A stretch of 35,441 bases of DNA from a virus. Positions 5,001-35,441 of this stretch are shown here, one piece after another (within the stretch, counting starts at the first letter, position 1; the number at the start of each line of letters is the position of its first letter). The stretch covers positions 1 through 35,441 of IMG/VR virus record IMGVR_UViG_3300035666_000092, one strand, 5' to 3'. A program made the position numbers and the translations under genes. The notes under the pieces are model-generated. The model did not search any database. It was not told the DNA's origin and worked only from the letters and a program-made list of their open reading frames with translations.

Positions 5001-5010
5001 GGATGATCTG

Positions 5011-9909: not shown

Positions 9910-9927
9910 TCACAACGGAGAACGTGC

Positions 9928-11013: not shown

Positions 11014-11039
11014 CCCCTAAACCTTGAGAGGAGAACGCC

Positions 11040-12002: not shown

Positions 12003-12011
12003 GGGCTGGCT

Positions 12012-12257: not shown

Positions 12258-12267
12258 GGGGCTGCCT

Positions 12268-12555
12268 GTGCATTTGTTGCATCGCAATCCGGTTACGGGA
12301 AAATCGACCTACTATGTCGAGACCGACGACAGTTATGTGATCTACACAGAGCAGGACGTTGAGCCGGTGCTCGACTTTTGTGTCGCCAAGGCCAGCGAGA
12401 AGCCTGGCGCTGCCTTTCGACACGCCGCCGAGATTCCGCTGGTGTTCGTTGACCAGGCCGCCGTCGAGGGCTGGCTGCACGATGAGAAGAAGTGGAAGCA
12501 GTGGCTAAATGATCGCGATCACTACCGCTTTCGCACATGGGAAGGGCGGCTATGA
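12268..12555 (+). CDS. Conserved small podovirus-type protein, 95 aa
   Basis: I chose the GTG at 12268, ten bases after the previous stop with AAGGGG as ribosome site; an open frame exists further upstream but overlaps the previous gene completely. The C-terminal segment EKKWKQWLNDRDHYRFRTWE resembles a conserved motif (a WLND-type sequence) of short proteins encoded between capsid and adaptor genes in BPP-1-like phages. Function is not established. Ends in an ATGA overlap with the adaptor gene. Confidence 0.65.
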   Translation: MHLLHRNPVTGKSTYYVETDDSYVIYTEQDVEPVLDFCVAKASEKPGAAFRHAAEIPLVFVDQAAVEGWLHDEKKWKQWLNDRDHYRFRTWEGRL

Positions 12556-13202
12556 CTATCGCCACATATAACGATCTCAAAAACGCCGTTACCGACGAGC
12601 TGCTGCGCGCTGGTGACGCGACTTTTGCCGCCCGATTGCCGCGCCTGATCGCGCAGGCCGAGCGCGGTATCGAGCGCGATCTGCGCTGCAAGGAGATGGA
12701 GCAGACCGTCACGCTGACGCTGACGGCAGGGAGCGCTGTGCCCACTGGCGGTATGCCGAGCAATCTGATGGAGGTGTGCGCCATCGAGTTGCTAACGGCG
12801 CCGCCGCAGCCGCTTGATGCGATGGAGCGAAAGGCGATGTCGCTGCGGTTTAGCGGCGCGCCTGCAGGCCGGCCTCAGGCGTATGTTGAATGGGGTGGCG
12901 GGCTGACCTTCGCACCAACGCCCGACGCTACATACCAGGCGCGCCTGGATTACTATGCGCGTCTTGCGCCGCTGTCGGACGCGGCGCCTACCAACACGGT
13001 GTTTACGCGCTATTGGGATCTGTATCTGTACGCGACGTTGCTCGCCTCTGCGCCTGGTCTGGCCGATGATGCGCGGATCAAAGTGTGGGGTGAGTTGTAC
13101 GGCGCAGCGCTCACGAGCGCGCTCGAGCAGATCAATGGCGCCAATGTGCGCAGCGCGTACGCGCGCGCCACCGCTGGGCGCGCCTATGGCAAGCTGTCGT
13201 GA
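12552..13202 (+). CDS. Head-tail adaptor protein (gp6/SU10 adaptor-like)
   Basis: The start MTIATYNDLKNAVTDELLRA, then LPRLIAQAERGIERDLRC, is the typical N-terminus of phage adaptor proteins that sit below the portal ring and close the channel. Residues ~165-200 (RYWDLYLYATLLASAPGLAD) form the usual C-terminal helix pair, followed by helical sequence. The length of 216 residues fits. ATG overlaps the preceding stop, and the gene ends in GTGA overlapping the next start. Confidence 0.75.
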   Translation: MTIATYNDLKNAVTDELLRAGDATFAARLPRLIAQAERGIERDLRCKEMEQTVTLTLTAGSAVPTGGMPSNLMEVCAIELLTAPPQPLDAMERKAMSLRFSGAPAGRPQAYVEWGGGLTFAPTPDATYQARLDYYARLAPLSDAAPTNTVFTRYWDLYLYATLLASAPGLADDARIKVWGELYGAALTSALEQINGANVRSAYARATAGRAYGKLS

Positions 13203-13435
13203 CCGACTTTTCGGGCCGCGGCGAGGGCGGCCCGCTGCTGGCGCGGCTGCGCAATGAAATCAAGCAGGCCTTTGAGCGGCGTGATGCTGCGCCGCTGCGT
13301 CTGAACGCCTACCAACCGAGCACGCTGCCGCCGCCGGCGCGGTTGCGCGGTCATGTGGTTTTTATCGAAACGACGGCGCGCCCCGCTTACAGCGACGGCG
13401 CGGCCTGGCGTTACATGGATGGGAGCGCGGTTTAA
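13199..13435 (+). CDS. Small tail/connector protein, 78 aa
   Basis: Starts at GTG in a GTGA overlap with the adaptor gene and ends adjoining the next ATG. The C-terminal GHVVFIETTARPAYSDGAAW then RYMDG is a short motif found at the end of small phage structural proteins. Helical N-terminal half. Role unknown; by position a minor connector or tail component. Confidence 0.6.
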   Translation: MTDFSGRGEGGPLLARLRNEIKQAFERRDAAPLRLNAYQPSTLPPPARLRGHVVFIETTARPAYSDGAAWRYMDGSAV

Positions 13436-14199
13436 TGCCTGCAGTCGCATCGCCGCGCCTGCGCCTGGAAAAGCAGGCGACGGGCGAAAACACCAACACC
13501 TGGGGGGTGCGCCTGAACGACGGCGGCCTCGAGCTGATCGACCAAGCGATTGCTGGTGTAACAACAAAGGCTGTGACTGGCGCAGCGGCGCTGACCGCTA
13601 CCAACTTCGCAGCCGACGAAGCGCGTAGCGCTGTGCTGCGGCTGACGGGCGACGGAGGCACGCTCACGATCCCGGCTGTGCAGAAGGTGTATCTGGTCGA
13701 CAATGCCTGCACCGGCGCGGTGACGATCACTGCCGGCGCCGGCGCAGCGGTGGTGCAGCCGGGGGAAGTGGCGCCAATCTATTGCGACGGCGTCGTGGTG
13801 CGGCGCATCGGCATTCGCAATTTTGGCGACGCGGTGTTGAAGGCTGCGGCCGATCCCGTCGACGCCACCGACATCGCCAATCGCAGATGGGTTCTCGCGC
13901 AGATCGGCGCGGTGGCGCAGTCGCTCTGGCTGCCGCGCACCAGCGCGATCGTGGCGGCGGCAGGCGATCGCATCCTGGCCGACACCAGCGCCGGCGCTTG
14001 GACCCTTACGCTGCCGCCGACGCCGACCACGGGCATGGAAGTGCAGGTGATCGACGCGCGCGCGACATGGCACACCAACGCGCTGACGATCGCGCGCAAC
14101 GGCGCGACGATCGCCGATCTCGCGGAGGATCTGATTTGCGATCTGCGCGCTGCGCGCGTGTCGTTGGTTTACACCGGCGCGACCTGGGCGGTCGGCTAA
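13435..14199 (+). CDS. Minor tail/structural protein, 254 aa
   Basis: The N-terminus PRLRLEKQATGENTNTWGVR followed by LNDGGLELIDQAI is a recurrent motif of phage tail and fibre-base proteins (Gxx-NTWG...LN). Beta-rich body with repeats of the kind GAVTITAGAGAAV. It follows the adaptor region, so it may be part of the tail knob or fibre attachment. Exact role not resolvable. Confidence 0.6.
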   Translation: MPAVASPRLRLEKQATGENTNTWGVRLNDGGLELIDQAIAGVTTKAVTGAAALTATNFAADEARSAVLRLTGDGGTLTIPAVQKVYLVDNACTGAVTITAGAGAAVVQPGEVAPIYCDGVVVRRIGIRNFGDAVLKAAADPVDATDIANRRWVLAQIGAVAQSLWLPRTSAIVAAAGDRILADTSAGAWTLTLPPTPTTGMEVQVIDARATWHTNALTIARNGATIADLAEDLICDLRAARVSLVYTGATWAVG

Positions 14200-14211
14200 G
14201 GGGAGGCGCAT

Positions 14212-15732
14212 ATGGCCTGGCGAGCCCTGCCGATCGAGATTGGCGACGGTCTGTTATTCGACGAGACCGGCGTGGCGGCTGAGGGCCGCTGGAAAGCGGG
14301 CGCGCGCGTGCGGTTTCGGCGCGGCCGACCGCAGGCGATCGGCGGGTGGCAGCGTAGGCTGCCGGGCACGCTGTCAGGCGTGTGTCGTGCTGCCATTGCC
14401 TGGAGCAATCGCGCCCGGGATCTGCAGATCGCCTACGGCACACACTCGCACCTGCAGATTGAGCGCGGCGGCGCGCTGTATGACGTGACGCCGACAGGGC
14501 TAGCAGTGGGCGCGATCGACGCCGGCAGCCTGGGCGGCTTTGGCGAAGGGCTCTACGGGCGCGGCGCCTACGGCGTCGGCGAGCTTGGCGGCGGACTGTT
14601 GCGCACCTGGTCGCTTGCGCCGTATGGCGAGCAGCTGCTGGCAAGCCCGCGCGGCGGCACGCTGTATGCCTGGCTGGGCAATACGGGCGTGCGCGCCAGC
14701 GCGGTGGCGGGCGCACCAGCTGTCATCGAGGCGATGTTTGTCGATCCCAATCGCTATGCGGTGGCGCTGGGCGCCACAGAGCAGGGAACGGGCAACTTCC
14801 ACCCGATGCTGGTGCGGTGGAGCGATCAGGACGATTACGCGAGCTGGGTGGCCAGCGCGACCAACAAGGCGGGCGAATTTCCCGTGACCGAAGGCGCCAA
14901 ACTGGTGGGCGGATCGCCAGGATCGCCATCGCTGATTTGGACTGACACAGCCTTGTACGAGATGCGCCTTTTGGATGCCGACCTAGTGTGGGGCTTTCCG
15001 CTGGTCGGCACCGGCTGCGGCCTGATCGGGCCGCGGGCGCATGCGCGGCGCGATGGTCTGGCCTGGTGGATGAGCCCGACCGGGCAGTTTTTCGAGTTTA
15101 CCGGCGGGCCGCCGACGCCGCTGCCGTGCCCGCTGCTCGATGAGGTGTTTGATAATCTGAATTGGGCGCAGGCCGAGAAGGTGCACGCCGCGCCGAATAC
15201 GGCATTCGATGAGATCTGGTGGCTGTATCCCGATCGCCGCGACGGCGATGGGCGCGAATGCTCGCGTTATGTCGCTTTCCATCTGCGCGAGCGGCATTGG
15301 ACGGCGGGCCCGCTCGATCGCACTGCCTGGATTGATGCGGGCCTGTTTGCGCAACCGATCGCGGTGACGCCTGGCGGCATCGTGTACGATCACGAGACCG
15401 GCGCGAGCGCGGATGGCGGGCCGCTAGGCGAGTGGCTGATCAGCGGCGCGCTGGATACTGAAGACGGCGACGCCTTCTGGCGCATCGACGGGATGATGCC
15501 GGATGTGGAAAACCTCGAGGGCGTGCTGCAGGTCGAGATTTTGTTTCGCGACACGCCGCAGGGGCCTGAGCGCGCGATCGGACCTTTCGCGATCACGGCG
15601 GCCGCGCAGGTGCTGAAGTTTCAGGCCCAGGGCCGCCATGCGCGCATCCGCTTTTCATCGGCGACGACGCCTAGCGCCTGGCGCCTGGGCGATCCGCGCT
15701 GGGATGTGCGCGTTACAGGGATGCAGCGATGA
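14212..15732 (+). CDS. Tail knob/hub-like structural protein, 506 aa
   Basis: Good ribosome site (GGGGAGGCGCAT before ATG). The product opens PIEIGDGLLFDETGVAAEGR then WKAGARVRFRRGRPQAIGGW, a beta-rich, WD-like repeat pattern found in ~500-residue structural proteins of BPP-1-like and P22-like podoviruses (tail stabilisation or hub). The pattern of PxxxGGW and W/Y-rich strands continues to the end (ARIRFSSATTPSAWRLGDPR). I infer a tail component under the adaptor; no enzymatic motif seen. Ends in an ATGA overlap with the next gene. Confidence 0.65.
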   Translation: MAWRALPIEIGDGLLFDETGVAAEGRWKAGARVRFRRGRPQAIGGWQRRLPGTLSGVCRAAIAWSNRARDLQIAYGTHSHLQIERGGALYDVTPTGLAVGAIDAGSLGGFGEGLYGRGAYGVGELGGGLLRTWSLAPYGEQLLASPRGGTLYAWLGNTGVRASAVAGAPAVIEAMFVDPNRYAVALGATEQGTGNFHPMLVRWSDQDDYASWVASATNKAGEFPVTEGAKLVGGSPGSPSLIWTDTALYEMRLLDADLVWGFPLVGTGCGLIGPRAHARRDGLAWWMSPTGQFFEFTGGPPTPLPCPLLDEVFDNLNWAQAEKVHAAPNTAFDEIWWLYPDRRDGDGRECSRYVAFHLRERHWTAGPLDRTAWIDAGLFAQPIAVTPGGIVYDHETGASADGGPLGEWLISGALDTEDGDAFWRIDGMMPDVENLEGVLQVEILFRDTPQGPERAIGPFAITAAAQVLKFQAQGRHARIRFSSATTPSAWRLGDPRWDVRVTGMQR

Positions 15733-16253
15733 TTGATACCGACACTGACACTGACACTGACACTGACGAAGACATGAAGGATGACATTGACGAGGCGGCG
15801 CTGGTGCGGCGCTGGATGCTGGGCAATGAGGCAGCGGTCGACTTTATTTTGTTGCTGTTTCGCGCGTCGCACCTGGCCGATGATGTCGTCGACGGCGACA
15901 GCTTCGATCCGCTCGCCGACCAGGGCCAGCTTTGGGCGATCTTTTTCGGCCGGCTGATGCCCAACCCCTTCTTCCAAGCGCATGTGCAGCGGTTTGCGGG
16001 CGCCATCACGCCGGCGGTGCACGATTGGGTGCTGGCGACGCGCTGGCAGCGCGAGCCGGATACAGTGAAGCGGCTGTTTGCCTACGTGCTGCGGTTGACG
16101 CTCGAGCATGCCGTGATCGTCGCGGCCGATATTGTCGGCGGCTTCGACCATGCGCAGGCGGTGGCGACCGAGATGCGCGAGGTGTTCCATATCGAAACGG
16201 GGCGCGAGGCGCTGCCGGCTTTCCTGGAGGAATGCGATGGGCTGGCTAGGTAA
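15729..16253 (+). CDS. Conserved phage protein with DT-repeat N-terminus, 174 aa
   Basis: The N-terminus is an Asp-Thr run encoded by a GACACT hexamer repeat. The body (ALVRRWMLGNEAAVDFILLL, then SHLADDVVDGDSFDPLAD, NPFFQAHVQRF) matches a family of ~160-residue phage proteins of unknown role commonly found in podovirus structural modules; the conserved piece is the D-D-x-V-D-G-D segment. The first 13 residues are likely a disordered addition. ATG overlaps the previous stop; the gene overlaps the next by 17 bp. Confidence 0.65.
   Translation: MIDTDTDTDTDTDEDMKDDIDEAALVRRWMLGNEAAVDFILLLFRASHLADDVVDGDSFDPLADQGQLWAIFFGRLMPNPFFQAHVQRFAGAITPAVHDWVLATRWQREPDTVKRLFAYVLRLTLEHAVIVAADIVGGFDHAQAVATEMREVFHIETGREALPAFLEECDGLAR
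15741..15764 (+). repeat. In-frame GACACT hexamer repeat (4 units)
   Basis: Four perfect GACACT units, flanked by the related GATACC and GACGAA, encode an Asp-Thr run at the very start of the protein. Loss or gain of a unit keeps the frame and changes only the length of the run. Confidence 0.9.
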
Positions 16254-17661
16254 CGCCCGCACCACGACGGTGCAGCAGAACACAACGCCCGCCTGGGTGC
16301 AGAATGCCGTGCAAGAGGGCATCCAGGCCGGCCGTGACGCTGCCGCGCGCCCGTTTGTGCCCTACACAGCGCCACGGGTGGCGGGCATGGATCCGATGCA
16401 GGTGCAGGCGCGCGCCATGGCCAGCGCCAATGCCGGCGCGTGGCAGGACGGCTTGCAACAAGCTGGCCTCAGCGGCATGGCGGGGCTGGCGCCGGTGCGC
16501 GATGTGACGGCGCCGACTGTGCAGGCTCAGACGGTGCAGGCGCCGACAATGGCGCCCACCGCGCAGGCGACTGCTGTCGGCCAGGCGGCCGTGCAGGGTG
16601 TTACAGCGCCGACTGCAGCCGCCGGCATGGCGGCCTATCAGAACCCCTACCAAAACCAGGTGATTGACGCGGCCATGCGCCAGGTGCGCCGCCAGGCCGA
16701 CCAGGCGCAGGCGCAGTTGGGTCAGCGAGCGGCGGCAGCAAACGCCTTTGGCGGATCTCGTGAGGCTATTCTGCGCGGCGAGATCGAACGCAATGCGCAA
16801 GAGACCGCCGGCGACGTCGCCGGCCGCCTTGCCGCGCAGGGGTTCGACACGGCTGCGGGCCTGGCCATGCAGGACGCGGGCCGATCGTTGCAGGCGGGGC
16901 TGTTTTCAGCGGGGGCGGCCAACCAGGCGGCAGAGGCGGCGGCTGGCCGTAGTCAACAGGCCGGGCTGTTCAACGCGGAAGCGGCTAACGCGCAGGAAGC
17001 GCGACGCGCCGCGATGGAAATGGAGGCGCGGCGCACGACTGCTGACATGGCGATGGACGCCGATCGCACCAATGCTGGCTTCTCCATGGCCGCACAGGGC
17101 GCCAACCAGGACGCCGACGCCGCTGCCCGCGATCGCGCCATCCGTGTCGGCGGCCTATTTGGCGATCTCGCCGAGACCGGCGGGCGGCTCAACCTTAGCG
17201 ACATCGCGATGCTGCAGGGCTTGGGCGCGGAGGGCCGCGGCATTGACCAGCAAAGCCTTGATGCACGCTTTAATGAGTTCCTCCGCGAGCAAGAGTATGG
17301 CGACGAGCGCACGCGCCTGCTGCTGTCTGCGATTTACGGGGCTCCCATGAGCCTGTGGAGCACGCGAACGGAAAACAGCACCAGCCGGGATCCGGCGCGG
17401 GACTTGCAGGCGATCGGCAGCCTAATGCAAGGCGCCGGCCTATTTTTTAGTGATCGACGGCTGAAGCGCGCCGTTACGCCGATCGGCGTCGATGAGCGCG
17501 GCGTGGCTTGGTACGAGTACGCTTACAAATGGGATGCGCCGGAGGTTCGACGTGTCGGCGTGATGGCGCAGGATCTGCTACTCATTGCGCCACAGTGTGT
17601 GCAAGAGCTTGGCGGGGTTTTGGCCGTTGACTATGGCGCGCTGCACGGGTGGAGGCGCTAA
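16237..17661 (+). CDS. Internal virion protein with C-terminal S74-type chaperone domain
   Basis: The start is the ATG (MGWLGNARTTT) after a CTGGAGG ribosome site; the open frame upstream to 16132 is an arginine-rich shadow. Residues ~1-330 are Ala/Gln-rich helices (QNPYQNQVIDAAMRQVRRQA, QAQLGQRAAAANAFGGSRE, then many AA-rich repeats) as in ejection or injection proteins of podoviruses. The last ~75 residues (FFSDRRLKRAVTPIG through the C-terminus) are an S74/intramolecular-chaperone domain; SDRRLK holds the Ser-Lys pair (five residues apart) that in endosialidase-type domains performs self-cleavage. This domain normally trimerises and releases fibre proteins, so its fusion to an internal-protein body is noteworthy. 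Confidence 0.75.
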   Translation: MGWLGNARTTTVQQNTTPAWVQNAVQEGIQAGRDAAARPFVPYTAPRVAGMDPMQVQARAMASANAGAWQDGLQQAGLSGMAGLAPVRDVTAPTVQAQTVQAPTMAPTAQATAVGQAAVQGVTAPTAAAGMAAYQNPYQNQVIDAAMRQVRRQADQAQAQLGQRAAAANAFGGSREAILRGEIERNAQETAGDVAGRLAAQGFDTAAGLAMQDAGRSLQAGLFSAGAANQAAEAAAGRSQQAGLFNAEAANAQEARRAAMEMEARRTTADMAMDADRTNAGFSMAAQGANQDADAAARDRAIRVGGLFGDLAETGGRLNLSDIAMLQGLGAEGRGIDQQSLDARFNEFLREQEYGDERTRLLLSAIYGAPMSLWSTRTENSTSRDPARDLQAIGSLMQGAGLFFSDRRLKRAVTPIGVDERGVAWYEYAYKWDAPEVRRVGVMAQDLLLIAPQCVQELGGVLAVDYGALHGWRR

Positions 17662-17722
17662 TGATCTCTGCTATAGTGGACTGCCTGCCGCGTCGACACT
17701 CTAATGTTTTGGAGCGCCGCTG
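17662..17722 (+). other. Short gap between internal virion genes
   Basis: Sixty-one bases with no gene; one of the few places in the late run where genes do not overlap. A TATAGT hexamer lies at 17672-17677 but without a clear partner -35, so I do not call a promoter. The ribosome site for the next gene is the GGAGCGCC just before its ATG. Confidence 0.3.
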
Positions 17723-19291
17723 ATGTTCACAAGCCCAACCTTTGATCGTCAGCAGCGCTTGCGAGCGGTTATGCAGCTGATAGGGCGCGATCCTTCTGCT
17801 GCGCTGATGATGCTGACGCAGGGCACGCCAGGTGCGACGCCAGGTGCGACGCCAGGTGCGACGCCAGGTGCGACGCCAGGTGCGACGCCAGGTGCGACGC
17901 CAGGTGCGACGCCAGGTGCGACGCCAGGTGCGACGCCAGGTGCGACGCCAGGTGCGACGCCAAGTGGGCGGCAGCCTATGCAGCCAGCGGCTCCACTGCC
18001 GCAGGCAATCACGGGAAGCTCGCCGTTCTCGCCGCCGCCGCGCAATCCTGCGGTGGCGGCGGTTACGGCGCAGCAGCCACAAGCTGGACCCGAAGCGCCA
18101 ATGAACGCCGACGACGCCGAAATTGTGGTAACGACTCGACCCGTCGCGCGCACGCCGTTTGATGCTGGGTTGTTGGCTATGGATCGGGCAGCCAATCCGG
18201 TGAAACCTGCCGAACTGACGTGGGGTGATCGATTGCAGATCGCCGGCGCTACTCTGCAACAAATGGGGCGGCCCGATAATCAGATCGCTACGACAATGAC
18301 GGGGATTCGCACGCTGTCACGAGAGCAAGCGCAGGAGGAAGAGCGCAAGCGCCTGTCGGCGGCTCAGATCGCCGGCGTGCGCAACATAATCGATCAGGAG
18401 CGGCTGCGCTGGGAGGAAGACGACAACCCCGCCAAGCCTCGATGGGAGCAGACTTGGACAATGCAAATGGCGCGCCTTGCGTCGAGCCCCGACGAGTTTT
18501 TTCGCTTATATGCCGCGCGCCAGGAGGCCGAAGCGGGCCGCGACATTCAGCGCAGCCAGCTGAATCAAGAGGGCGCGCAGTTCAACAGAGCCTACGCCCA
18601 GCGCGATCGGCATTTCGACGCCGAGCACAACCTGAATCAAAAGCAGGCAGATCGCAATTATGAGCTGGGACAGGGCCAGCTAAATGTGGAAAGAACCAAC
18701 GCGGAAACGCGCCGGCGGGATGTCGACAACAATATCAACAACCTAGCCGGCAAGGACCCATTGCAAAGAGCGCTGTTGAACGCCGATGTCAGTGCGCTGA
18801 AGGACATGGACGACGAAACGGAAAAACTGACTAAGGTCGCGGAATCTCTGCAGCAGTTCGGAAGACTGAACGCGCAGCAACCAACCGGCTTTATGGCGTC
18901 AGGCACGCCGATCCTGGGGATCGCGCCCAATCAAAACTTCCAGCAGATGCAAGTGATCCAGAATGCGCTGTTTCCGGTGCTCGGTGAGCTGATTCGCGGT
19001 ACACTGTCGGAGACCGACGCGTACCGCGTTGAGCGTGGGACTGTGCATGTCGACAACAGCACAGAAACCAACCAAGCGATCGTGCGGGTCGGCGTCGAGG
19101 CAGCGCGGCGGGCGCAAGAGCGCTCAACGCTGGCGCGGGAATACCTGCGCACTCAGAGGAACCTTGACACATTCAACCGACATTGGGCCGCATACGTGGG
19201 CGAAGTCAGCGCCTGGTCGGATGATCCGAAGAAGCCGCCGAAAACTTTTGCGCAGTGGATGCGTGATAAGACCGGCGGAGGCGCCCAATGA
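17723..19291 (+). CDS. Internal virion (ejection) protein with TPGA repeat tract
   Basis: Helical, charged protein of 522 residues. After an N-terminal helix (DRQQRLRAVMQLIGRDPSAA) comes a tandem TPGA tract (residues ~35-82) and a Pro-rich linker, then a conserved-looking piece (LTWGDRLQIAGATLQQMG) followed by long coiled-coil helices (QARREAE-like segments, NLNQKQADRNYELGQGQLN). Size, composition and neighbours fit the proteins that podoviruses inject ahead of their DNA. It ends in an ATGA overlap with the next large internal protein. Confidence 0.7.
   Translation: MFTSPTFDRQQRLRAVMQLIGRDPSAALMMLTQGTPGATPGATPGATPGATPGATPGATPGATPGATPGATPGATPGATPSGRQPMQPAAPLPQAITGSSPFSPPPRNPAVAAVTAQQPQAGPEAPMNADDAEIVVTTRPVARTPFDAGLLAMDRAANPVKPAELTWGDRLQIAGATLQQMGRPDNQIATTMTGIRTLSREQAQEEERKRLSAAQIAGVRNIIDQERLRWEEDDNPAKPRWEQTWTMQMARLASSPDEFFRLYAARQEAEAGRDIQRSQLNQEGAQFNRAYAQRDRHFDAEHNLNQKQADRNYELGQGQLNVERTNAETRRRDVDNNINNLAGKDPLQRALLNADVSALKDMDDETEKLTKVAESLQQFGRLNAQQPTGFMASGTPILGIAPNQNFQQMQVIQNALFPVLGELIRGTLSETDAYRVERGTVHVDNSTETNQAIVRVGVEAARRAQERSTLAREYLRTQRNLDTFNRHWAAYVGEVSAWSDDPKKPPKTFAQWMRDKTGGGAQ
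17825..17968 (+). repeat. 12-bp tandem repeat coding for TPGA (11 perfect units)
   Basis: Eleven exact copies of ACGCCAGGTGCG at 17825-17956, then one degenerate copy (ACGCCAAGTGGG) to 17968. The unit is in frame, so copy-number changes alter only linker length. The opposite strand reads as open frames of repetitive sequence through it, which are artefacts of the repeat. Confidence 0.95.
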
Positions 19292-27929: not shown

Positions 27930-28331
27930 ATGAACAACGAATATCACGACCAGGGCACCTGGCGCGACAGCGTCGAGCGGCGCATCGGGCAGCTGGGCGC
28001 TGGTCTGGACGCTGCGCGCCACACCGACGATCGCCACCACGGCGAGCTGCGCGACCTTAAGGCGAGCATTGAGACGTTGCGAACGGATCTGTCGACGCAG
28101 ATCGCCACGTCGGTGGGCGGGCTGCGCGCTGATCTGATGGCGCTGCGCACCGCGCGGGCGATGCAGGACGCGCCAGCGGCCGCCCCTGCCTCGTCTGCGT
28201 CGCTCGATTGGAAGCTGGTGGCGACGATTGCCGCTCTGCTTGCCGGCGCCCTCGTGGGCATTGGGATTTCTGTCGGGCGCTCTTGGCAGCTCGATGACAC
28301 CAAGGCGATCGTGCGGACAATCGCACCATGA
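27930..28331 (+). CDS. Coiled-coil protein with C-terminal membrane segment, 133 aa
   Basis: The natural start is the ATG at 27930 (a longer frame to 27837 is basic and unlikely). Residues 10-80 are heptad-like (VERRIGQLGAGLDAARH, RDLKASIETLRTDLSTQIA), followed by an Ala/Ser linker and a hydrophobic segment (LVATIAALLAGALVGIGISV, ~96-115) and a short charged end. The plan (soluble coil plus C-terminal anchor) resembles phage hemolysin-XhlA-type accessory proteins, a weak resemblance. Its stop overlaps the next ATG (ATGA), coupling it to the four-TM gene. Confidence 0.55.
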   Translation: MNNEYHDQGTWRDSVERRIGQLGAGLDAARHTDDRHHGELRDLKASIETLRTDLSTQIATSVGGLRADLMALRTARAMQDAPAAAPASSASLDWKLVATIAALLAGALVGIGISVGRSWQLDDTKAIVRTIAP

Positions 28332-29626
28332 TTGGACCGTTCAAACGGGCGGCGGCGCCCGACAAGCCGCGGTGGGACAAGATCGACCCTGTGCAAGAGG
28401 CGATCGAGCTCGCCAAGATCGCTAAGCTGGCGGCCGATTGCGTGGGGCTGTTCTCGCTGTTCGCGCTGGTGGTGGTGTTTTCGGACATCGCCGGCGCCAA
28501 GCATTTGACCTGGTCGCTAGACGCAATCGGGCCGGCGTCGGGCCTGGCCTGGTCGCTGCACATACCGTGGCTGCCCTTTCTGCTGGCCGGCGCTTTTGGC
28601 GTGTGGATCTTCAACCGCCATGGGCTGCGGATCCTGCTCACGCTGCGCTTTGCCGCACCCGATCAGCGCCGCTGGATGGGCCTTGCCTGGGGCGGCCGCG
28701 ACGCGACGCCGATCGCCAAGGCGTCGGTGGCGCTGGCGTTGCTGGCGTTTAGTGCACTGATCGTGGTGACCGCCACCAAGTTCCAAGACGGCGGGCGGTC
28801 TGCCGATGCACGCCAGGCCGCGATCGTCGAGGAGACCGCCGCGCGCGATCGCGCTGCGGTGCAGGCGGAGCTCGACAGCGTGACGCGCGACCTGGAGACA
28901 CTGACGCAGCCGCGAGACGACACGCCAAACTTCCAGACCCAGGCCGCGCGCGCCGGCGAGGGCGCCTGGACCGCGCGCGTGCAGGCCACCGCCGACGCCA
29001 CGCTGCGCGCCCGCCTCGGCGCTGAGACGCCCACCGCGGCTCGCGCCGACGCGCTGCGCACGCGAGAGGCCGCCTTGCGACAGGAGCTGGCTGCGGCGCC
29101 CGTGACGGCGGCTGTGGCACGGGAGGTGGATGTCGATCGCGGCGCGACCGATTGGATCGTCGGCGCGTTCGCGTCGATCCCGTTGTGGTTTGCGGTGGCC
29201 ACCGAGTTCCTGGCCCTGATCATGAAGCTGGTGGAGGTGCTGCTGCTGCGCCGGGCGCAGGCAGCCTGGCTGGCGGCTGAGGCTGAGCCCATTGCAGCGC
29301 CGCCACCGTCGCGCACTGACGCCGACGGCGAGCGCCAGCGGCTGCGCTGGTCACGCCGGCCGGCAGCTGCGCCCTTGGAGCGGGCCGCGATGCCGCCTGA
29401 GCCACCGCCGCCCCAGGAGCCGCCGAGCGAGCCCCCCACTGAGCCCGCCCGCAAGCGCGCCCTGAAAGCGCTGCCGGAGCCGACGCCGGAGGAGCTCGCG
29501 GCCTGGCGCGGCCTGCAGGATGAAGACGAGGCGACGCAGGACGACGTTGCGCCCGACGCCGCGGCTGATGATGTTGCAGGAGACACGGCGACCGTGGTCG
29601 CTGACGATGAGCGGAGCGCTGCCTGA
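28328..29626 (+). CDS. Polytopic membrane protein with coiled-coil domain and Pro/acidic tail, 432 aa
   Basis: Membrane segments at about residues 34-53, 77-94, 130-149 and 273-303. Between the third and fourth lies a heptad-like region (160-255: ARQAAIVEETAARDRAAVQA, ELDSVTRDLETLTQP). If the N-terminus is cytoplasmic, the coil is periplasmic and the last ~120 residues (Pro-rich then acidic: PPEPPPPQEPPSEPPTEP, ending ATQDDVAPDAAADD) are cytoplasmic. ATG overlaps the previous stop, and its own stop overlaps the Hsp70 ATG (TGATG), so the Hsp70 is coupled to it. No known family recognised; no J-domain HPD motif in it. It is the natural candidate partner of the Hsp70 at the membrane. Confidence 0.55.
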   Translation: MIGPFKRAAAPDKPRWDKIDPVQEAIELAKIAKLAADCVGLFSLFALVVVFSDIAGAKHLTWSLDAIGPASGLAWSLHIPWLPFLLAGAFGVWIFNRHGLRILLTLRFAAPDQRRWMGLAWGGRDATPIAKASVALALLAFSALIVVTATKFQDGGRSADARQAAIVEETAARDRAAVQAELDSVTRDLETLTQPRDDTPNFQTQAARAGEGAWTARVQATADATLRARLGAETPTAARADALRTREAALRQELAAAPVTAAVAREVDVDRGATDWIVGAFASIPLWFAVATEFLALIMKLVEVLLLRRAQAAWLAAEAEPIAAPPPSRTDADGERQRLRWSRRPAAAPLERAAMPPEPPPPQEPPSEPPTEPARKRALKALPEPTPEELAAWRGLQDEDEATQDDVAPDAAADDVAGDTATVVADDERSAA

Positions 29627-31203
29627 TGGCGATCATTCTGGGTGTGGATCTCGGCACGACCAATAGCGTGCAGGCGGTGTATGAGCGCGGCCAGCCGCGG
29701 GTGATCCTAAGCGGCGACGATCAGCGCAGCCCGGTGACGCCGACGGTTGTGGCGCAGACCGAAGGCGGCGCGACGATCGTCGGCGCGCCAGCGCGCTGGC
29801 AGGCGCAGACCAATGCGAGGTTTACCTATTCCAGCCTAAAGCGGATCCTGGGCCGCAAGTTCGATGAGCCGATCGTAGCTGCGCAGGCCGCTTATGCGCC
29901 GTACGAGCTCGCGCCAGGCCCTGATGGCCAGGCTTGGGTACGCGGCCGTGATGGCCTGCAGAGCCCGGAGGCGCTGCTGGCGCTGGTGTTGCGCAAGCTG
30001 AAGGCGGAGGCCGAAGCCCGGTTTGGGCGCGCGGTGGGCGATTGCGTGCTCACAGCGCCCGCCCATTTTGGCGTCGCCCAGAAAGCGGCCTTGACGGCGG
30101 CAGCTGAAGCGGCGGGCCTGCGCGTGCGGCGATTGCTGCCGGAGCCCAGCGCTGCGGCGCTGGCCTATGGCTATGATCGCGGGGCGAATAAGACCATCGC
30201 GGTCTTTGACTTCGGCGGCGGGACCTTCGACGTCTCCATCCTACGTGTGAAAGGCGCCCGCTTCGACATTTTGGCGACCGCGGGCGATCCCTTTCTGGGT
30301 GGCGATGACGTCGATCGGCGCATCGCTGAGCGGCTGCATGGCGACTTCGAGCGCGAGCACGGCCGCAGCCTCGCCGGCGATGCCTTCCAGTTGCAGCGGC
30401 TGCGGGATGAGGCCGAGAAGGCCAAGATCCAGCTGTCGGCGGTGGAGAGCTACACGGCGGCCATCCCGTTCGTCGCTATGGATCTCGACGCGCGCCGCCA
30501 AATTGACCTGGTCCACACGCTGACAAGGGCGGATCTTGAGGCGATGACGGCGGATCTGATCGAGCGCTGCCGCGAGCCCTGCCTGCAGGCGCTGCGCAAG
30601 GCCAAGCTCGACGCCCGCGACCTCGACGAGGTGGTGCTGGTGGGCGGCATGACAGCCATGCCGGCAGTGCGCGCCGTGGTGCGCGAAGTGTTTGGGCGAG
30701 AGCCGCGCAAGGATGTGCCGCCCGAGCAGGTGGTCGCCATGGGCGCGGCGCTGTACGCCGCGGCCCTGCAGGGTGAGGTGGCGTCGCTCAGCCTCTCAGA
30801 GCCGCTGCAGCACAGCCTGGGCCTGGAGGATCACACTGGCAAACTGCAGGCTATTTTGAGGGCCGGCACGCCAACGCCAGCGCGCCGCGCGGTGCGGTTC
30901 ACGACATCGCAGGACGATCAGACGGCGGTGGCGGTGCGCTTGTATGACGGCGACCTGGCCGTGGCGCGCGACAATCGCGCCTTGGGCGTTCTGATCCTCG
31001 ATGGGATCGCACCCGCGCCAGCGGGCCAGCCTGTGATCGAGGTGGAGTTCGATCTCGACGACGAGGGCGTGCTCACCGCCAGCGCGAAGGACCTCGCCAG
31101 CGAGGCGCTGGTCAGCGCCCAGGTGCATGTCGCCACAGGCCTGGACGCCGGCGCTATGGCGGCGCTGCGCGACGATGGCGCCGGCGCGGAGCTCAGCCCG
31201 TAG
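29626..31203 (+). CDS. DnaK-type Hsp70 chaperone, lid-less
   Basis: Clear Hsp70. Nucleotide-binding domain (about 1-383): phosphate loop 1 GVDLGTTNS (6-14), SSLKRILGRKF with the Lys72 counterpart of DnaK Lys70, LPEPSAAALAYG (171-182), phosphate loop 2 VFDFGGGTFDVS (193-204, with D195, T200, D202), adenosine motif VLVGGMTAMPAV (337-348). Linker region VASLSLSEPLQHSLGLE lacks the usual LLLD core. Substrate-binding beta domain ~392-503 with TTSQDDQTAVAVRLYDGD and SAKDLASE. The protein ends at 525, so the helical lid (about 100 residues in DnaK) is missing. Coupled TGATG start with the preceding membrane gene. No DnaJ or GrpE partner is encoded in the window, so host factors would be needed if it cycles normally. 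Confidence 0.95.
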   Translation: MAIILGVDLGTTNSVQAVYERGQPRVILSGDDQRSPVTPTVVAQTEGGATIVGAPARWQAQTNARFTYSSLKRILGRKFDEPIVAAQAAYAPYELAPGPDGQAWVRGRDGLQSPEALLALVLRKLKAEAEARFGRAVGDCVLTAPAHFGVAQKAALTAAAEAAGLRVRRLLPEPSAAALAYGYDRGANKTIAVFDFGGGTFDVSILRVKGARFDILATAGDPFLGGDDVDRRIAERLHGDFEREHGRSLAGDAFQLQRLRDEAEKAKIQLSAVESYTAAIPFVAMDLDARRQIDLVHTLTRADLEAMTADLIERCREPCLQALRKAKLDARDLDEVVLVGGMTAMPAVRAVVREVFGREPRKDVPPEQVVAMGAALYAAALQGEVASLSLSEPLQHSLGLEDHTGKLQAILRAGTPTPARRAVRFTTSQDDQTAVAVRLYDGDLAVARDNRALGVLILDGIAPAPAGQPVIEVEFDLDDEGVLTASAKDLASEALVSAQVHVATGLDAGAMAALRDDGAGAELSP

Positions 31204-31251
31204 CGCCATCACCAAGAGTAGCGGCCCCAAGGGCAGCCGTGGAGCCGGTTT

Positions 31252-31458
31252 GCAGTTGACACGCAAAACGGAGCTTTGCGTCGAAACAAGGCCTTATTGG
31301 CGGGTCGGTTGACGTCGCCAGCCAGCGCCAGCCGCGAAAGCGGTGGGTTTTACACACCGTTGGTCGGGGGTTCGATCCCCTCACCGCCCACCATGGCCGC
31401 CTTGCCTGCCGTGGCGGCGACCCAGGGGCCCGCGGATCGCAGTTGACGCGAAGTTGAC
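31252..31458 (+). promoter_or_regulatory. Candidate integrase arm sites: GTTGAC repeats around attP
   Basis: The hexamer GTTGAC occurs four times in one orientation: 31255-31260, 31308-31313, 31442-31447 and 31453-31458; the first and third copies share the longer GCAGTTGAC. Two flank each side of the attP core. Repeated short sites on both arms of attP are how tyrosine integrases of the lambda type bind, and the inverted repeat at 31261-31281 could bind an excisionase or bending protein. This assignment is by pattern and position only. Confidence 0.45.
31346..31393 (+). other. attP core: 3' half of tRNA-Val(UAC)
   Basis: The sequence folds as the 3' part of a tRNA: anticodon loop TTTACAC with UAC at 31351-31353, variable loop, T arm with GGGGG and CCCTC stems (one G-T pair) around TTCGATC, acceptor strand ACCGCCC, discriminator A and CCA at 31391-31393. 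The 5' half is absent and the two lower anticodon-stem pairs (positions 28-42 and 27-43) are mismatched, which puts the left limit of homology at about 31346. It is therefore an attachment core, not a working tRNA gene, next to the integrase. Integration would restore an intact host tRNA-Val. Confidence 0.85.
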
Positions 31459-31467
31459 AGAAACCGC

Positions 31468-32598
31468 TCACGGCTTGTTCTCTTCTGCTGATTTGGCGGG
31501 TCGGCCCGCCTGGGGGGTTTCGGGCTGATCGGCGGTGTCGTTTGCAGCTGCCAGCGCCGCCGAATAGGCCTCACGGGCCAGCTGCGCCTCGTCGACATAG
31601 ATCGCAGTGAGCGTCTCAACCTCTCGCTCTGACCAGCCGAGCTCCATCGCCAAGGTGCGATTGGGCACGCCCTGCCGCGCGCGGCGTGTCACCGCGTTGT
31701 GCCGCAGCCTGTGCAAGGAGCCCTCAAGGCCCAGGCGCGCAAATTCGCGATCGACCGCCTGGCCCAGACTGTCGGGCTTCCAGGGCCGCCCGTGCGCGTT
31801 GGTCAGCACGGTGGCCGCCCGTCGCGGGATGCGCTGCAGCAGCGCCGCCAGGGCCGGCGTGATGCGCACCATGGCGACCCGCCGCTTGCGCCGCCCCTTG
31901 CTGGTGGGCAGTCGGATGACGCCGGCGGCCTCGTCGATCCATGACCAAGCCAGGCGGCACAGATCCGTGCGCCTAAAGCCCGCCTCATAGGCGACCGCAA
32001 TCGCCCAGCTGACTTCCTCACGCGCACCCTCGATGGCGCGATGCACATCGGCGTCGGCCATCGGCGCGACAACAGCCGCCACATACAGCCCGCCCAGGCC
32101 TGCGGCCGGCGTGCAATCCTTGGGCAGCGCCTTCACCTCTCGGCAGTAGCGCGTGAACGCTTGCAGCGTCGTCACCAGCGCGTCGGCCTCGCGCAGGCTG
32201 CGGGCGGCCGTGTGATCGCGCAGCATGCGGCAGGCCTGCGCGCCAACATCGCGCGCCAGCTGCGCCATTGTCAGCGCACCCAAGGCCGCCTCGATCGCAT
32301 CAAGATGGCGGTGGTAGGTTTTGCGGGTGGCCGGCGCCAAGATCGCCCACTCGGGCGACATGCGCCAGCGGCGGCACAGGGCGGCGACACTGCCGGCCGG
32401 CGCGCCCGCCCGCGCTTCAGCCCAACCCTTGGCGATGTCAGGCAGCGCCTCAAGCACGGCGCGCTTTGCGTCGGCCTTGGTTGCAAAGGGGCCGGCGTCA
32501 AACAAGCGCGGCGCGCCTGCGCCCCGCCACGCATAGACATACACGCGCCAGCCGCCGGCGCGCAGCACGGGATTGATCCATAAATCACGCAGGACCAA
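31468..32598 (-). CDS. int: Tyrosine-family site-specific integrase
   Basis: Tyrosine recombinase: N-terminal arm/core-binding region with the start LVLRDLWINPVLRAGGWRVY, a helical core-binding domain around residues 90-150, and a catalytic domain with R209 (GFRRTDLCRL), K234 (TSKGRRKR), H296-x-x-R299 (LHRLRH), W322 (LGWSE) in place of the second His, and Tyr334 (IYVDE). The frame is open to 32700, but that would overlap the next gene by 115 bp; I chose the TTG at 32598 (14-bp overlap), so the start is uncertain. It inserts the phage at tRNA-Val through the attP core about 75 bp beyond its 3' end. Low-complexity C-terminal tail. Confidence 0.88.
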   Translation of the reverse strand: MVLRDLWINPVLRAGGWRVYVYAWRGAGAPRLFDAGPFATKADAKRAVLEALPDIAKGWAEARAGAPAGSVAALCRRWRMSPEWAILAPATRKTYHRHLDAIEAALGALTMAQLARDVGAQACRMLRDHTAARSLREADALVTTLQAFTRYCREVKALPKDCTPAAGLGGLYVAAVVAPMADADVHRAIEGAREEVSWAIAVAYEAGFRRTDLCRLAWSWIDEAAGVIRLPTSKGRRKRRVAMVRITPALAALLQRIPRRAATVLTNAHGRPWKPDSLGQAVDREFARLGLEGSLHRLRHNAVTRRARQGVPNRTLAMELGWSEREVETLTAIYVDEAQLAREAYSAALAAANDTADQPETPQAGRPAKSAEENKP

Positions 32599-32860
32599 GC
32601 CGCTTGCGAATGTCCTCGATCGCCGCTTGGTCGGCAAGGTGGTCGGCAAGCGAGGAGAGTATGGCGGCGGCGGTCGGGTCATGGCGCTGTGCCTTTTCAA
32701 GCTCTATGGTGGCGCGAGGTAGGCCAAGCATAGCGCGCTCAACGCGGACACGCACGCCGTCGACCTCAAGTTCGATCGCGACCAGGCCGAGATCGGCAGC
32801 CGAGCGCGCCGCCTCTGTAACCAAGCGGCGCAACTTGGCGGGGGACGGCGGCGCCGTCAT
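32585..32860 (-). CDS. Small integrase-linked protein, 91 aa
   Basis: Lies just upstream of the integrase on the same strand and overlaps its start. The product has a helical N-terminus (LRRLVTEAARSAADLGLVAI) leading to a strand ELEVDGVRVRVE, a pattern recalled from small proteins next to integrases in alphaproteobacterial prophages. An excisionase or integrase regulator is possible but unproven. ATG overlaps the stop of the upstream 43-residue gene (ATGA). Confidence 0.6.
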   Translation of the reverse strand: MTAPPSPAKLRRLVTEAARSAADLGLVAIELEVDGVRVRVERAMLGLPRATIELEKAQRHDPTAAAILSSLADHLADQAAIEDIRKRLGPA

Positions 32861-32988
32861 GGCCCGCCCAACAGCGTTGTGAAAAAGGCCGCCCAGCCGC
32901 CAACCACGAACACAGCGAGGGCGGTATAAATCACAATCCGCGTCCAGCTGATTGTTAGGCCTTCAAGGGCGGAGCGGTGGCGGCGCAT
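32857..32988 (-). CDS. Very small single-TM membrane protein, 43 aa
   Basis: The minus-strand ATG at 32988 opens a 43-codon frame whose TGA overlaps the next gene's ATG (ATGA at 32857-32860). Product MRRHRSALEGLTISWTRIVI then YTALAVFVVGGWAAFFTTLL: a basic N-terminus and one membrane helix. Only a weak ribosome site is visible. Coupling to the integrase-linked gene supports it; function unknown. Confidence 0.5.
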   Translation of the reverse strand: MRRHRSALEGLTISWTRIVIYTALAVFVVGGWAAFFTTLLGGP

Positions 32989-33001
32989 CTGAGAAGGACC
33001 T

Positions 33002-33034
33002 CAAAAAGCGCCCCGCCCGTTTTGCAGGCGGGGC
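33002..33034 (-). terminator. Rho-independent terminator (minus strand)
   Basis: A perfect 8-bp stem, GCCCCGCC at 33010-33017 and GGCGGGGC at 33027-33034 with a 9-base loop, is followed on the minus strand by a run of five T (A5 at 33003-33007). It lies just after the stop of the minus-strand gene ending at 33051 and before the small genes leading to integrase, so it would end or reduce read-through from the repressor side. Confidence 0.85.
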
Positions 33035-33050
33035 AAGTTTGGGGAAAAGC

Positions 33051-33803
33051 TTAGCCGCAGCCGTAGCCGTCGGCGCTCACGACAGGCGCAGCGGCGATCG
33101 AGGCGCTGGCGCGCCTGCTGGCGGCCAGGAGTTCACACACGCCCTCAACGACGACGACGTCCACGACGGGCTCGATCGTGCAGGTGGCAATCTTGTCGGG
33201 GTGCAGACCAGCCACCGCCACGCCAGACAGGCTCACGCCCTCAGCCGCCCACCAGCGCCACATGCGGCGCGCGTGCTCGAGGCGCACGCTGTTGTCGCTC
33301 TTGGAGGCCAGGACACCCCACCAGCAGCCGCCCCAATTAGAGCGCGCGATCACCCGCTTGCCGAGCAGCGGGTGGTGCGGCGTGTTTTGGGTTAAAAGAT
33401 CGTTCAGACGTACACGGGCCTCATCCGACGGTCTGCCGGCAAGCGCCAATTCGTCGCTGTCAAGCGACGATCCGGCGTCGCTGTTCGGGTTAGTCATCAT
33501 CACGTTAAACCGCGAATCTAAGTTGGCGGCGATGGTGCCCAGCGCGCCCAAGGTGGTCGCCTCACTAGCAATGTCCGGGGCAGGGATCGGGGCCGGCGGC
33601 GTTTCAGCGGCGAGCCAGTCTTCCTGCCTAGCAATGTCCGGGGCAGGGATCGGGGCCGGCGGCGTTTCAGCGGCGAGCCAGTCTTCCTGCCTAGCAATGT
33701 CCGGGGCAGGGATCGGGGCCGGCGGCGTTTCAGCGGCGAGCCCCAGGCCCTGATACGGGGTCTGGCCAGAGTGGATTTCGTTCTCGTTAGGAATAGGGTG
33801 CAT
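33051..33803 (-). CDS. Repeat-bearing lysogeny-region protein with DUF6948-like C-terminus, 250 aa
   Basis: The ATG at 33803 has a GGAG ribosome site six bases upstream; upstream in-frame ATGs exist without one. Residues ~20-82 are a Pro-rich repeat of 21 residues (AAETPPAPIPAPDIARQEDW) in nearly three copies. The C-terminal ~120 residues (GKRVIARSNWGGCWWGVLAS, RRMWRWWAAEGVSLSGVAVA) resemble DUF6948-type phage proteins, which often end in a Gly/Tyr-rich GYG tail, here DGYGCG. Function of that family is unknown. It is downstream of the repressor gene on the same strand, with operator-like sites just before it, so it may be expressed from the prophage. Confidence 0.65.
   Translation of the reverse strand: MHPIPNENEIHSGQTPYQGLGLAAETPPAPIPAPDIARQEDWLAAETPPAPIPAPDIARQEDWLAAETPPAPIPAPDIASEATTLGALGTIAANLDSRFNVMMTNPNSDAGSSLDSDELALAGRPSDEARVRLNDLLTQNTPHHPLLGKRVIARSNWGGCWWGVLASKSDNSVRLEHARRMWRWWAAEGVSLSGVAVAGLHPDKIATCTIEPVVDVVVVEGVCELLAASRRASASIAAAPVVSADGYGCG
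33565..33742 (-). repeat. 63-bp tandem repeat (2.8 copies)
   Basis: Two exact 63-bp units (33565-33627, 33628-33690) and a third truncated unit to 33742. The unit is 21 codons, in frame, encoding the Pro-rich repeat of the protein at 33051-33803. Being exact copies, they look recently expanded and are prone to copy-number change. Confidence 0.95.
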
Positions 33804-33842
33804 GGTTTTCTCCATCGTCGCGAAGCACCGACGCGCCCTATG

Positions 33843-33887
33843 TTCTGCAAAAGCGAACATTCTGCAAGTGATTTCGTAATTACAGAA
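33843..33887. promoter_or_regulatory. Imperfect operator-like sites upstream of the repeat-bearing gene
   Basis: TTCTG occurs at 33843-33847 and 33860-33864 (both within TTCTGCAA), and CAGAA at 33883-33887. With the 5-base spacing of the main operators, TTCTG-N5-GCGAA (33843-33857) and TTCGT-N5-CAGAA (33873-33887) are imperfect palindromes of the same kind. They lie just upstream of the gene at 33051-33803, so the repressor may also act there. Confidence 0.4.
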
Positions 33888-33940
33888 ATTGATTTTTCCC
33901 GATCGGTTGGTGGGCTGCTAAAAGCGGTGTGGGCGCGGCC

Positions 33941-34360
33941 CTAGCCGGTCTTGCGCTTTAGGCGCAGGCGCTTGGGCTTGTCGCCGGCGATTGTCGCGGC
34001 TTCCCGCGTCCCGGCTTCCCGCGCTCGCGCTGTTTTTGCAGCCTTAGCCGAGACCTTGGGGGCCAGCGCTTCGATTACCGCCTGGGCGCGGGGCAGGTCC
34101 TCCACGGGGATGCGCCGCACGGTATCGAAGATTGAGCCCCAAAAATCCGGGGCGGTGGGATCCCGCATTAGCAGGTCGGCCGGTTCGCAGTTCAAGGCGT
34201 CCGCCAGGCGCTCCAGCAGGTCCTGATTGTAGCGGGCGCGACCGCTCTCCAGCTCACTGATGCGGCTGACGGCTATGTCAATGCGATCCGCAAGGCGCGC
34301 CTGCGTGAGTCCGCGGTATTTACGCCATTCATACAAAAACCACTGTCGGCGTGTGCGCAT
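33941..34360 (-). CDS. XRE-family repressor (CI-like), 139 aa
   Basis: N-terminal helix-turn-helix of the XRE/Cro-CI type: WRKYRGLTQARLADRIDIAV then SRISELESGRARYNQDLLER and LADALNCEPADLLM, spanning residues ~13-65. The C-terminal part is a helical region and a very basic tail (KPKRLRLKRKTG). There is no LexA/CI-type cleavage and protease domain, so this is a short repressor, unlike lambda CI, and induction would not be through RecA-stimulated self-cleavage. It faces the Cro-like gene across two palindromic operators, as expected for the lysogeny repressor. Confidence 0.8.
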   Translation of the reverse strand: MRTRRQWFLYEWRKYRGLTQARLADRIDIAVSRISELESGRARYNQDLLERLADALNCEPADLLMRDPTAPDFWGSIFDTVRRIPVEDLPRAQAVIEALAPKVSAKAAKTARAREAGTREAATIAGDKPKRLRLKRKTG

Positions 34361-34454
34361 TTTGAGGTTCTGCTTGACAGAACGCCCCCCGCGCCATCCA
34401 CAATAACAGAAAATTGCTCTTGACCAACATTCTGAAAATCAGAACTTATGGCGC
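34361..34454. promoter_or_regulatory. Divergent promoter/operator region of the immunity switch
   Basis: Two palindromes share the form TTCTG-N5-CAGAA: 34368-34382 (arms extend one base to GTTCTG and CAGAAC, 34367-34383) and 34430-34444. For the rightward (Cro) side a consensus TTGACA lies at 34374-34379, overlapping the first operator, with a CACAAT -10-like hexamer at 34399-34404 (19-base spacer, long). For the leftward (repressor) side TTGGTC (34422-34427 reverse) and TATTGT (34400-34405 reverse) are 16 apart. The two -10 regions overlap, so the promoters would compete. The region is markedly AT-rich compared with the rest. Confidence 0.65.
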
Positions 34455-34772
34455 ATGACTTCGCCACCCGACTGCACCGTCCCAGCCGCCGAGCCCGCCG
34501 CGCCGCCGCGACGGGCGCCCCGCAAGCGTCGACTGCTGCCCAAGCGCCGCGCGCTGACAGCCTGGCGCGAAAAGCTGGGCTTTAGCCAGGCGCATGTGGC
34601 GCGGCTGCTCGAGGTCAGCCGGGCGCGGGTGTGTGAGATTGAGAGCGGCCATGGCTGCTCGCTGCGGCTGGCTGTGAAGATCGAGGCGCTGACCAAGGGT
34701 GCCGTGCGCGCCGCCGACCTGGTGCGCGTGGCCCCAGCGCCGAAGCGCCGCCGCGCGGGGGGCGCGCCATGA
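34455..34772 (+). CDS. Cro-like helix-turn-helix protein, 105 aa
   Basis: After a basic, Pro/Ala-rich N-terminus (about 1-40) the HTH is clear: LTAWREKLGFSQAHVARLLE followed by VSRARVCEIESGHGCSLRLA and VKIEALTKGAVRAADLV, like Cro/YdaS-type antirepressor or early regulators. The basic end (PAPKRRRAGGAP) may also touch DNA. It is divergent from the repressor and stands first in the rightward early operon, so it most likely switches off the repressor and starts lytic growth. Its stop overlaps the next ATG (ATGA). A decayed partial copy lies at 35240-35372. Confidence 0.75.
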   Translation: MTSPPDCTVPAAEPAAPPRRAPRKRRLLPKRRALTAWREKLGFSQAHVARLLEVSRARVCEIESGHGCSLRLAVKIEALTKGAVRAADLVRVAPAPKRRRAGGAP

Positions 34773-34906
34773 GCCTGCGACTGTCGAGTGTGCAGATGGC
34801 GCAGCTGGGGCGGCTGTACCGCGCCGCGCAGACGGCGACATGCCAAGCAATGCGCGACTGGATGGCGTTGATGCCGCCGCGCGCAGCGCTGAAAGGCGGT
34901 GAGTGA
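34769..34906 (+). CDS. Hybrid copy of the orf75 start, 45 aa
   Basis: The first 24 codons are identical to the gene at 57-284 (through the T of QTAT); after 34839 the sequence is unrelated and the frame ends after 45 codons (CQAMRDWMALMPPRAALKGG then E). It starts in an ATGA overlap with the Cro-like gene and its stop overlaps the next ATG (TGATG), so it is probably translated but is a truncated or chimeric version of orf75. Function unknown. Confidence 0.5.
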   Translation: MSLRLSSVQMAQLGRLYRAAQTATCQAMRDWMALMPPRAALKGGE

Positions 34907-35226
34907 TGGCAAGCGAATGGACCCCCGAGCGGATCGCGGCGACGATCAATCGCGCGCAGAGCCTTGTAGAGCGCGGCTACCTCCCGTGCGGATCTGATGT
35001 GCTTGCGCTTTGCGACGCGGCCCGCATCGGCCTCGCCGTGGTGGACCCCACCGACGCGGACGTGGAGCGGGTGGCTAAAGCGCTTGCGTGGCGTGAATGG
35101 CAGCGATGGCGGCCCGACCCCCTCGCGTGGGAAAGCCGCGATCCGGCTACACTTCGATACTGGCGCGACAACGCCCGCGCCGCAATTGCGGCTTTGGGCG
35201 GAGATAGAGCGAATGGAGATGAGTGA
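34906..35226 (+). CDS. Early protein of unknown function, 106 aa
   Basis: Starts in a TGATG overlap with the hybrid orf75 copy. The C-terminal half contains DADVERVAKALAWREWQRWR and the ending RYWRDNARAAIAAL, a pattern seen in small phage proteins (a V-E-R-V-A-x-A-L helix and an A-R-A-A-I-A-A-L end). N-terminal EWTPERIAATINRAQSLVER is helical. It sits between two copies of the repeated segment, so it may have arrived with the duplication. Function unknown. Confidence 0.65.
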   Translation: MASEWTPERIAATINRAQSLVERGYLPCGSDVLALCDAARIGLAVVDPTDADVERVAKALAWREWQRWRPDPLAWESRDPATLRYWRDNARAAIAALGGDRANGDE

Positions 35227-35239
35227 TGACACAAGCAAT

Positions 35240-35372
35240 TGGCGCGGCTGCTCGAGGTCAGCCGGGCGCGGGTGTGTGAAGATCGAGGCGCTGACCAAGG
35301 GTGCCGTGCGCGCCGCCGACCTGGTGCGCGTGGCCCCAGCGCCGAAGCGCCGCCGCGCGGGGGGCGCGCCAT
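35240..35372 (+). pseudogene. Decayed partial copy of the Cro-like gene
   Basis: 35240-35279 equals 34597-34636 and 35280 onward equals 34678-34839: the copy lacks 41 bp (34637-34677) that lie between two TGTGA direct repeats, one of which remains. The loss shifts the frame after VCE, so the helix-turn-helix is broken and the first ~47 codons of the parent are absent. A short frame (17 codons, starting at the ATG at 35226) reads through part of it and ends at 35279. Confidence 0.8.
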
Positions 35373-35441
35373 GAGCCTGCGACTGTCGAGTGTGCAGATG
35401 GCGCAGCTGGGGCGGCTGTACCGCGCCGCGCAGACGGCGAC
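35315..35441. repeat. Terminal direct repeat, right copy
   Basis: Identical to 1-127 and to 34713-34839. Together with 35275-35314 the match to the internal copy is 167 bp long (34673-34839). Joining it to position 128 closes the circle. Confidence 0.9.
35371..35441 (+). CDS. Start of orf75 (continues at position 128 after circularisation)
   Basis: Same 71 bases as 57-127: the ATG and first codons of the 75-residue gene. In the circular genome this is the same gene as the one annotated at 57-284, here cut by the window end. Confidence 0.85.
   Translation, partial: MSLRLSSVQMAQLGRLYRAAQTA

Follow-up and report, generated by a model that had tools for sequence, protein, structure and literature searches.

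A half tRNA-Val(UAC) beside a tyrosine integrase as the very probable attP core of a metagenomic tailed phage, and the host group to which it points

Many phages enter host tRNA genes without destroying them, the host keeping the 5' half of the gene and receiving the 3' half from the phage. The available part of the Islander paper (PMC4383910) counts 2083 anticodon-centred sites against 1836 in the T-stem region, and 3760 islands with a 3' fragment. Its site 'A', as described in that part, is the same kind of site as the one presented here: the attP holds a gene-restoring 3' tRNA fragment from the anticodon arm and adjoins the integrase. In a 2013 PLoS Genetics paper (PMC3861242), attP-tRNA matches were used to predict the hosts of metagenomic phage genomes; the accessible portion of that paper, whose method is the same as ours, includes a 43-base tRNA-Val case in a marine actinobacterium.

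The locus analysed here lies in IMG/VR record IMGVR_UViG_3300035666_000092, and the window is the whole stretch of 35,441 nucleotides taken from that record. The original prediction placed an attP in tRNA-Val(UAC) at 31331-31393, with only the 3' half of the tRNA carried by the phage. Both points hold. A half tRNA stands at 31346-31393 with a convergent tyrosine integrase next to it, phage genes lie to either side, the contig is probably circular, and ARAGORN found no complete tRNA in the whole window, nor in 31201-31500. The core of the predicted feature stands, but its start at 31331 was about 15 bases too far left, and 31331-31345, upstream of the core, is not tRNA-like. The core on the plus strand reads GGT TTTACAC ACCGT TGGTC GGGGG TTCGATC CCCTC ACCGCCC A CCA and covers tRNA positions 29-76 including CCA (numbering assigned by eye), with the anticodon TAC at 31351-31353. 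Very probably, 31346-31393 is the attP core of a temperate tailed phage of the anticodon-loop type, with tRNA-Val(UAC) as its target. Folded as RNA, 31320-31393 gave a z of -1.3, with no special structure.

The integrase is encoded on the minus strand at 31468-32700 (410 aa from a putative TTG start; PF00589, E 9.6e-16; PHROG 1, E 9.5e-27), and its gene points at the 3' end of the tRNA from 74 bases away. The phage genes that flank the attP are terminase and portal on the left, and integrase and repressor on the right. The repressor, a Cro/CI-type helix-turn-helix regulator at 33941-34360 on the minus strand, was recognised by its sequence matches (PF01381, E 1.8e-12; several PHROG repressor families) and is consistent with a temperate phage. 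On the other side, the last gene before the attP, which it directly adjoins, is an Hsp70-like gene of 525 aa at 29626-31203 on the plus strand (PF00012, E 4.1e-140; PHROG 22485, E 1.1e-139). The place beside an attP is a frequent location of lysogen cargo. Two tandem repeats were also seen in the window: one with a 63-base unit at 33565-33742, within an ORF at 33051-33860 whose protein has a DUF6948 domain, and a perfect array of 12-base units at 17825-17962, within an ORF at 17723-19291.

Integrases of the lambda type use arm-type sites on both sides of the core. In the 264-base stretch 31204-31467, GTTGAC occurs in four direct copies, two on each side of the core, against seven occurrences elsewhere in the window on both strands. 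The putative arm-type sites, all on the plus strand, are AGTTGAC at 31254-31260 and the variant GGTTGAC at 31307-31313 in the P arm, and AGTTGAC at 31441-31447 and at 31452-31458 in the P' arm. All three copies of AGTTGAC in the window, on either strand, fall in this stretch, and 18 bases at 31246 recur at 31433 with 83% identity. Against controls, the statistics of these repeats are modest. Of 693 other 264-base segments of the genome, 15 have some 7-mer that occurs three times in the segment and not again on that strand, and 274 have a 7-mer in three copies at all; among Markov shuffles of the stretch, 13% reached three copies of a 7-mer and 11% four copies of a 6-mer. Two repeats per side is the arrangement seen in arm sites, and because two GTTGAC repeats stand on each side of this core, their use as integrase arm sites is likely but unproven.

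Candidate host tRNAs were collected with a pattern that was degenerate in the anticodon stem, the variable loop and the T loop and selected on the ACCGCCC acceptor. It gave 39 genomic loci, in Microvirga, Niveispirillum, Azospirillum and a few unassigned genomes, which differ from the phage core at 2 positions (20 loci), 3 (5 loci), 4 (13 loci) or 5 (1 locus). The best match, 46 of 48 bases, is found in Microvirga and in Azospirillaceae. Among the BLAST matches listed, the half tRNA aligns to six Azospirillales genomes at 96% identity over 49 bases, with E values of 5e-14 to 8e-14 per genome. Because of these values, and because 20 of the 39 fetched tRNA-Val genes have only 2 differences, the likeness of 31346-31393 to tRNA-Val is, as judged from the alignments, not a product of chance.

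An exact copy of the host tRNA-Val end had also been expected in bacterial genomes, and none turned up: the 45-base tail at 31349-31393 is absent from viral_contigs and genome_contigs, collections from which near-identical records have possibly been left out. A mildly degenerate core had no match in viral_contigs either, and the core searched as DNA against phages and plasmids found only other tRNA genes or partial matches among the best 20 of 500 and of 57 records. The lack of an exact host tRNA does not refute the attP reading, because drift of a few bases in the attP, an unsampled host species and the possible omission of near-identical records are ordinary explanations.

The anticodon stem was compared in 42 tRNAs, namely the 39 pattern loci and three more from Azospirillales (L074-L076), one of the 42 having its 5' end cut by a contig end. 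The predicted host 5' end, GGGCGGT, was present in 41 of the 41 tRNAs with a visible 5' end, a result nearly forced by the selection on ACCGCCC. The predicted 5' anticodon stem at positions 27-31, ACGGT, occurred in none of the 42, which have TCGGT in 39 cases and GCAGT, CCAGT and GCGGC in one each. Two pairs of this stem are broken in the half tRNA, T27-T43 and G28-G42, and both had been read as marking the crossover side. The 28-42 pair does mark the boundary: position 28 is G in the phage versus C in candidate hosts with TCGGT stems. The 27-43 pair is naturally open in candidate hosts with TCGGT, and two genomes, G487 and G488, share the phage's ACCGTT yet have TCGGT, which sets T43 opposite T27. 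Since 27-43 is open in real tRNAs of the group, only the broken 28-42 pair marks the departure of the phage from its host. The original prediction assumed that 27-43 must be closed; to judge from these genes, it is often open in the tRNA-Val family at issue. For the same reason, host prediction calls for some caution, in that unpaired positions of a phage tRNA half may be unpaired in the host too.

The host identity of the phage core ends within the anticodon stem on the 5' side, stopping at position 28, from which we infer that the crossover point lies in a likely 7-base overlap, the anticodon loop TTTACAC at 31349-31355 on the plus strand; this loop is identical in all candidate hosts by choice of the search pattern. 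The tyrosine integrase would most likely exchange strands within the TTTACAC loop of the tRNA-Val(UAC) gene in the host. Integration would then leave a working tRNA gene beside the integrase, made of the 5' half kept by the host and the 3' half received from the phage, while the host's own 3' half, now displaced, would mark the far end of the prophage. When host 5' halves were joined to the phage 3' half, ARAGORN called 41 of 41 hybrids tRNA-Val(TAC), the 42nd tRNA being the one without a visible 5' end.

The window begins and ends with the same 127 bases, of which a third copy lies inside it at 34713-34839. The two right-hand copies share 167 bases (34673-34839 and 35275-35441) and are 602 bases apart. 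L002, another IMG/VR contig of 17963 bases, comes from the sample of IMG 3300042289; it agrees exactly with window positions 1-17923 and starts 40 bases earlier, and those 40 bases match the sequence before both right-hand copies of the 127-mer. This second contig ends at window position 17923, inside the 12-base tandem array, and the attP is outside it. From these overlaps the phage contig is probably a circle some 35.3 kb long in which a repeat varies locally; closure is unproven because the 127-mer has a third copy inside. The three copies probably arose either where the assembly graph was joined across a strain variant or by a genuine duplication at this place.

The same features bear on a different reading, in which the half tRNA is the attR of one prophage, the integrase comes from a second, tandem element, and the window is a stretch of host DNA that holds both. 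Integration also leaves a tRNA 3' fragment at the far end of a prophage, according to the available part of PMC4383910, and circular closure depends on a three-copy repeat. We nevertheless hold this reading to be very improbable: the window has no complete tRNA-Val; the integrase, the repressor, a replication-type helix-turn-helix gene, the terminase and the portal fit one phage of usual size; and the exact 127-base terminal overlap comes with another contig that bridges the left end. Still less credible is a decayed relic unused by the present integrase, with the real attP elsewhere. In its favour, the core is at least 2 of 48 bases off every sampled tRNA-Val, and Paracoccus phage Pben1 has a complete tRNA-Val next to its integrase and an annotated att site apart from it. 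Against it, the core agrees with the nearest hosts from the anticodon loop through the CCA end at all but two or three bases, and it sits between flanking repeats, 74 bases away from the integrase gene.

Read as an attP, the half tRNA indicates a group of hosts rather than one species. A tRNA with at most 3 mismatches over the 48 bases was found in 1 genome among 385 sampled from the class, in 8 of 82 genomes from the order of a Niveispirillum (G015), which we take to be Azospirillales, and in 7 of 248 genomes from the family of a Microvirga (G001). The phage's TT at positions 43-44 occurs in only 3 of the 82 Azospirillales genomes. One of them, G423, has 2 mismatches to the phage core and a swapped 31-39 pair; the other two, G487 and G488, have 3 mismatches each, all in the T loop, and belong to the same genus as the Niveispirillum genomes G015 and G019, with 11 genomes of that genus in the collection. 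With moderate confidence, we infer a host in Alphaproteobacteria, most likely in Azospirillaceae. As a matter of judgement and not of computation, we give Azospirillaceae slightly better than an even chance and Microvirga a small one, and leave the rest to other, unsampled groups. Azospirillaceae is favoured over Microvirga because the TT at 43-44 was found only in Azospirillales genomes and because G487 and G488 share a genus with Niveispirillum genomes. The actual host species is probably absent from the genomes searched. The tRNA half gives this host-less metagenomic phage a concrete lead at the level of a host family.

The nearest database relatives of the integrase are about 30% identical. 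Matches in phages, at E up to 1e-5, come from 13 records at 25-34% identity, of which 12 are Rhizobium, Mesorhizobium, Paracoccus or Agrobacterium phages and one is an Acinetobacter phage; the three matching plasmid records are all from Bradyrhizobium. A search of viral_contigs with the integrase protein gave no match. The integrase has matches in 24 of the 39 genomes of the tRNA-Val loci and in 34 of the 82 Azospirillales genomes, and in both sets identity does not exceed 32% in long alignments and reaches up to 40% in short ones. As reported in the available part of a paper on Sinorhizobium hot spots (PMC11476347), Sinorhizobium prophages have integrases that resemble those of Azospirillum phages, a case which warns against taking the relatives of an integrase for its host.

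No integrated copy bounded by a tRNA and a tRNA fragment was found among viral_contigs, the 39 locus genomes and the 82 Azospirillales genomes, and the DNA of 28000-35441 had no match in phages. When the right 19.9 kb of the window was compared with the 82 genomes, the matches listed were mostly to the Hsp70 gene and the tRNA core, with a few short ones, in a comparison that scored three candidates per genome and could miss small matches such as spacers. The longer DNA matches listed for the Hsp70-like gene in Azospirillales genomes are 63-69% identical. Distant portal relatives, at 26-38% identity, occur in 6 of the 82 Azospirillales genomes and in 12 of the 385 class genomes, rates which are not strictly comparable, as up to 12 candidates per genome were scored in the order and 2 in the class. 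Several genomes have the neighbouring structural genes in similar order, in pieces 23-45% identical. Around five of the six Azospirillales portal relatives, ARAGORN found a tRNA-Lys pair near one and no tRNA-Val. Because no close relative of this integrase was seen in the Azospirillaceae genomes that have these structural-gene relatives, they are no test of the tRNA-Val prediction. We offer only tentatively the idea of a temperate phage from an unsampled Azospirillaceae lineage, whose integrase founds its own branch with the tRNA-Val(UAC) anticodon loop as target and whose Hsp70 is possible lysogen cargo.

Among described phages, Paracoccus phage vB_PbeS_Pben1 (MK291441) likewise has a tRNA-Val(TAC) adjoining a convergent tyrosine integrase, but its annotated tRNA-Val is complete and it has a separate att site of 20 bases. 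Its integrase is absent from the 13 phage records that match ours. The annotated 'intergenic' att site at the start of the Pben1 record (L135, 1-240) resembles the anticodon arm of tRNA-Val(UAC). Pben1 may exchange the host tRNA gene as a whole.

Other viral contigs too carry 3' halves of tRNA-Val(UAC) cut at the anticodon stem, like the half in the window: of 30 stretches that a looser pattern picked up in viral_contigs, 14 have no AGCTCAG in the 31 bases upstream. Of the 14, L127 still has a 5' half in altered form, part of the D arm survives in L107, and L119 has the same sequence as L116 around the site. One neighbouring protein per locus was compared at 10 of the 14 loci (L117, L119, L122 and L127 left out): five of the ten gave a Phage_integrase match with E no higher than 0.001, and three of these five scored above the Pfam cut-off. 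These viral halves differ from ours in tRNA sequence, and only L113 of the 30 matches the window integrase, weakly. Compared with the case in the accessible portion of PMC3861242, where the match is exact, the best match here is 46 of 48 and is common to two host groups. From site 'A', as set out in the available part of PMC4383910, the present site differs in nothing of kind, only the Val-UAC tRNA and its sequence being particular to it. The best explanation is that the tRNA-Val attP of the window is of the ordinary, common anticodon-loop type.
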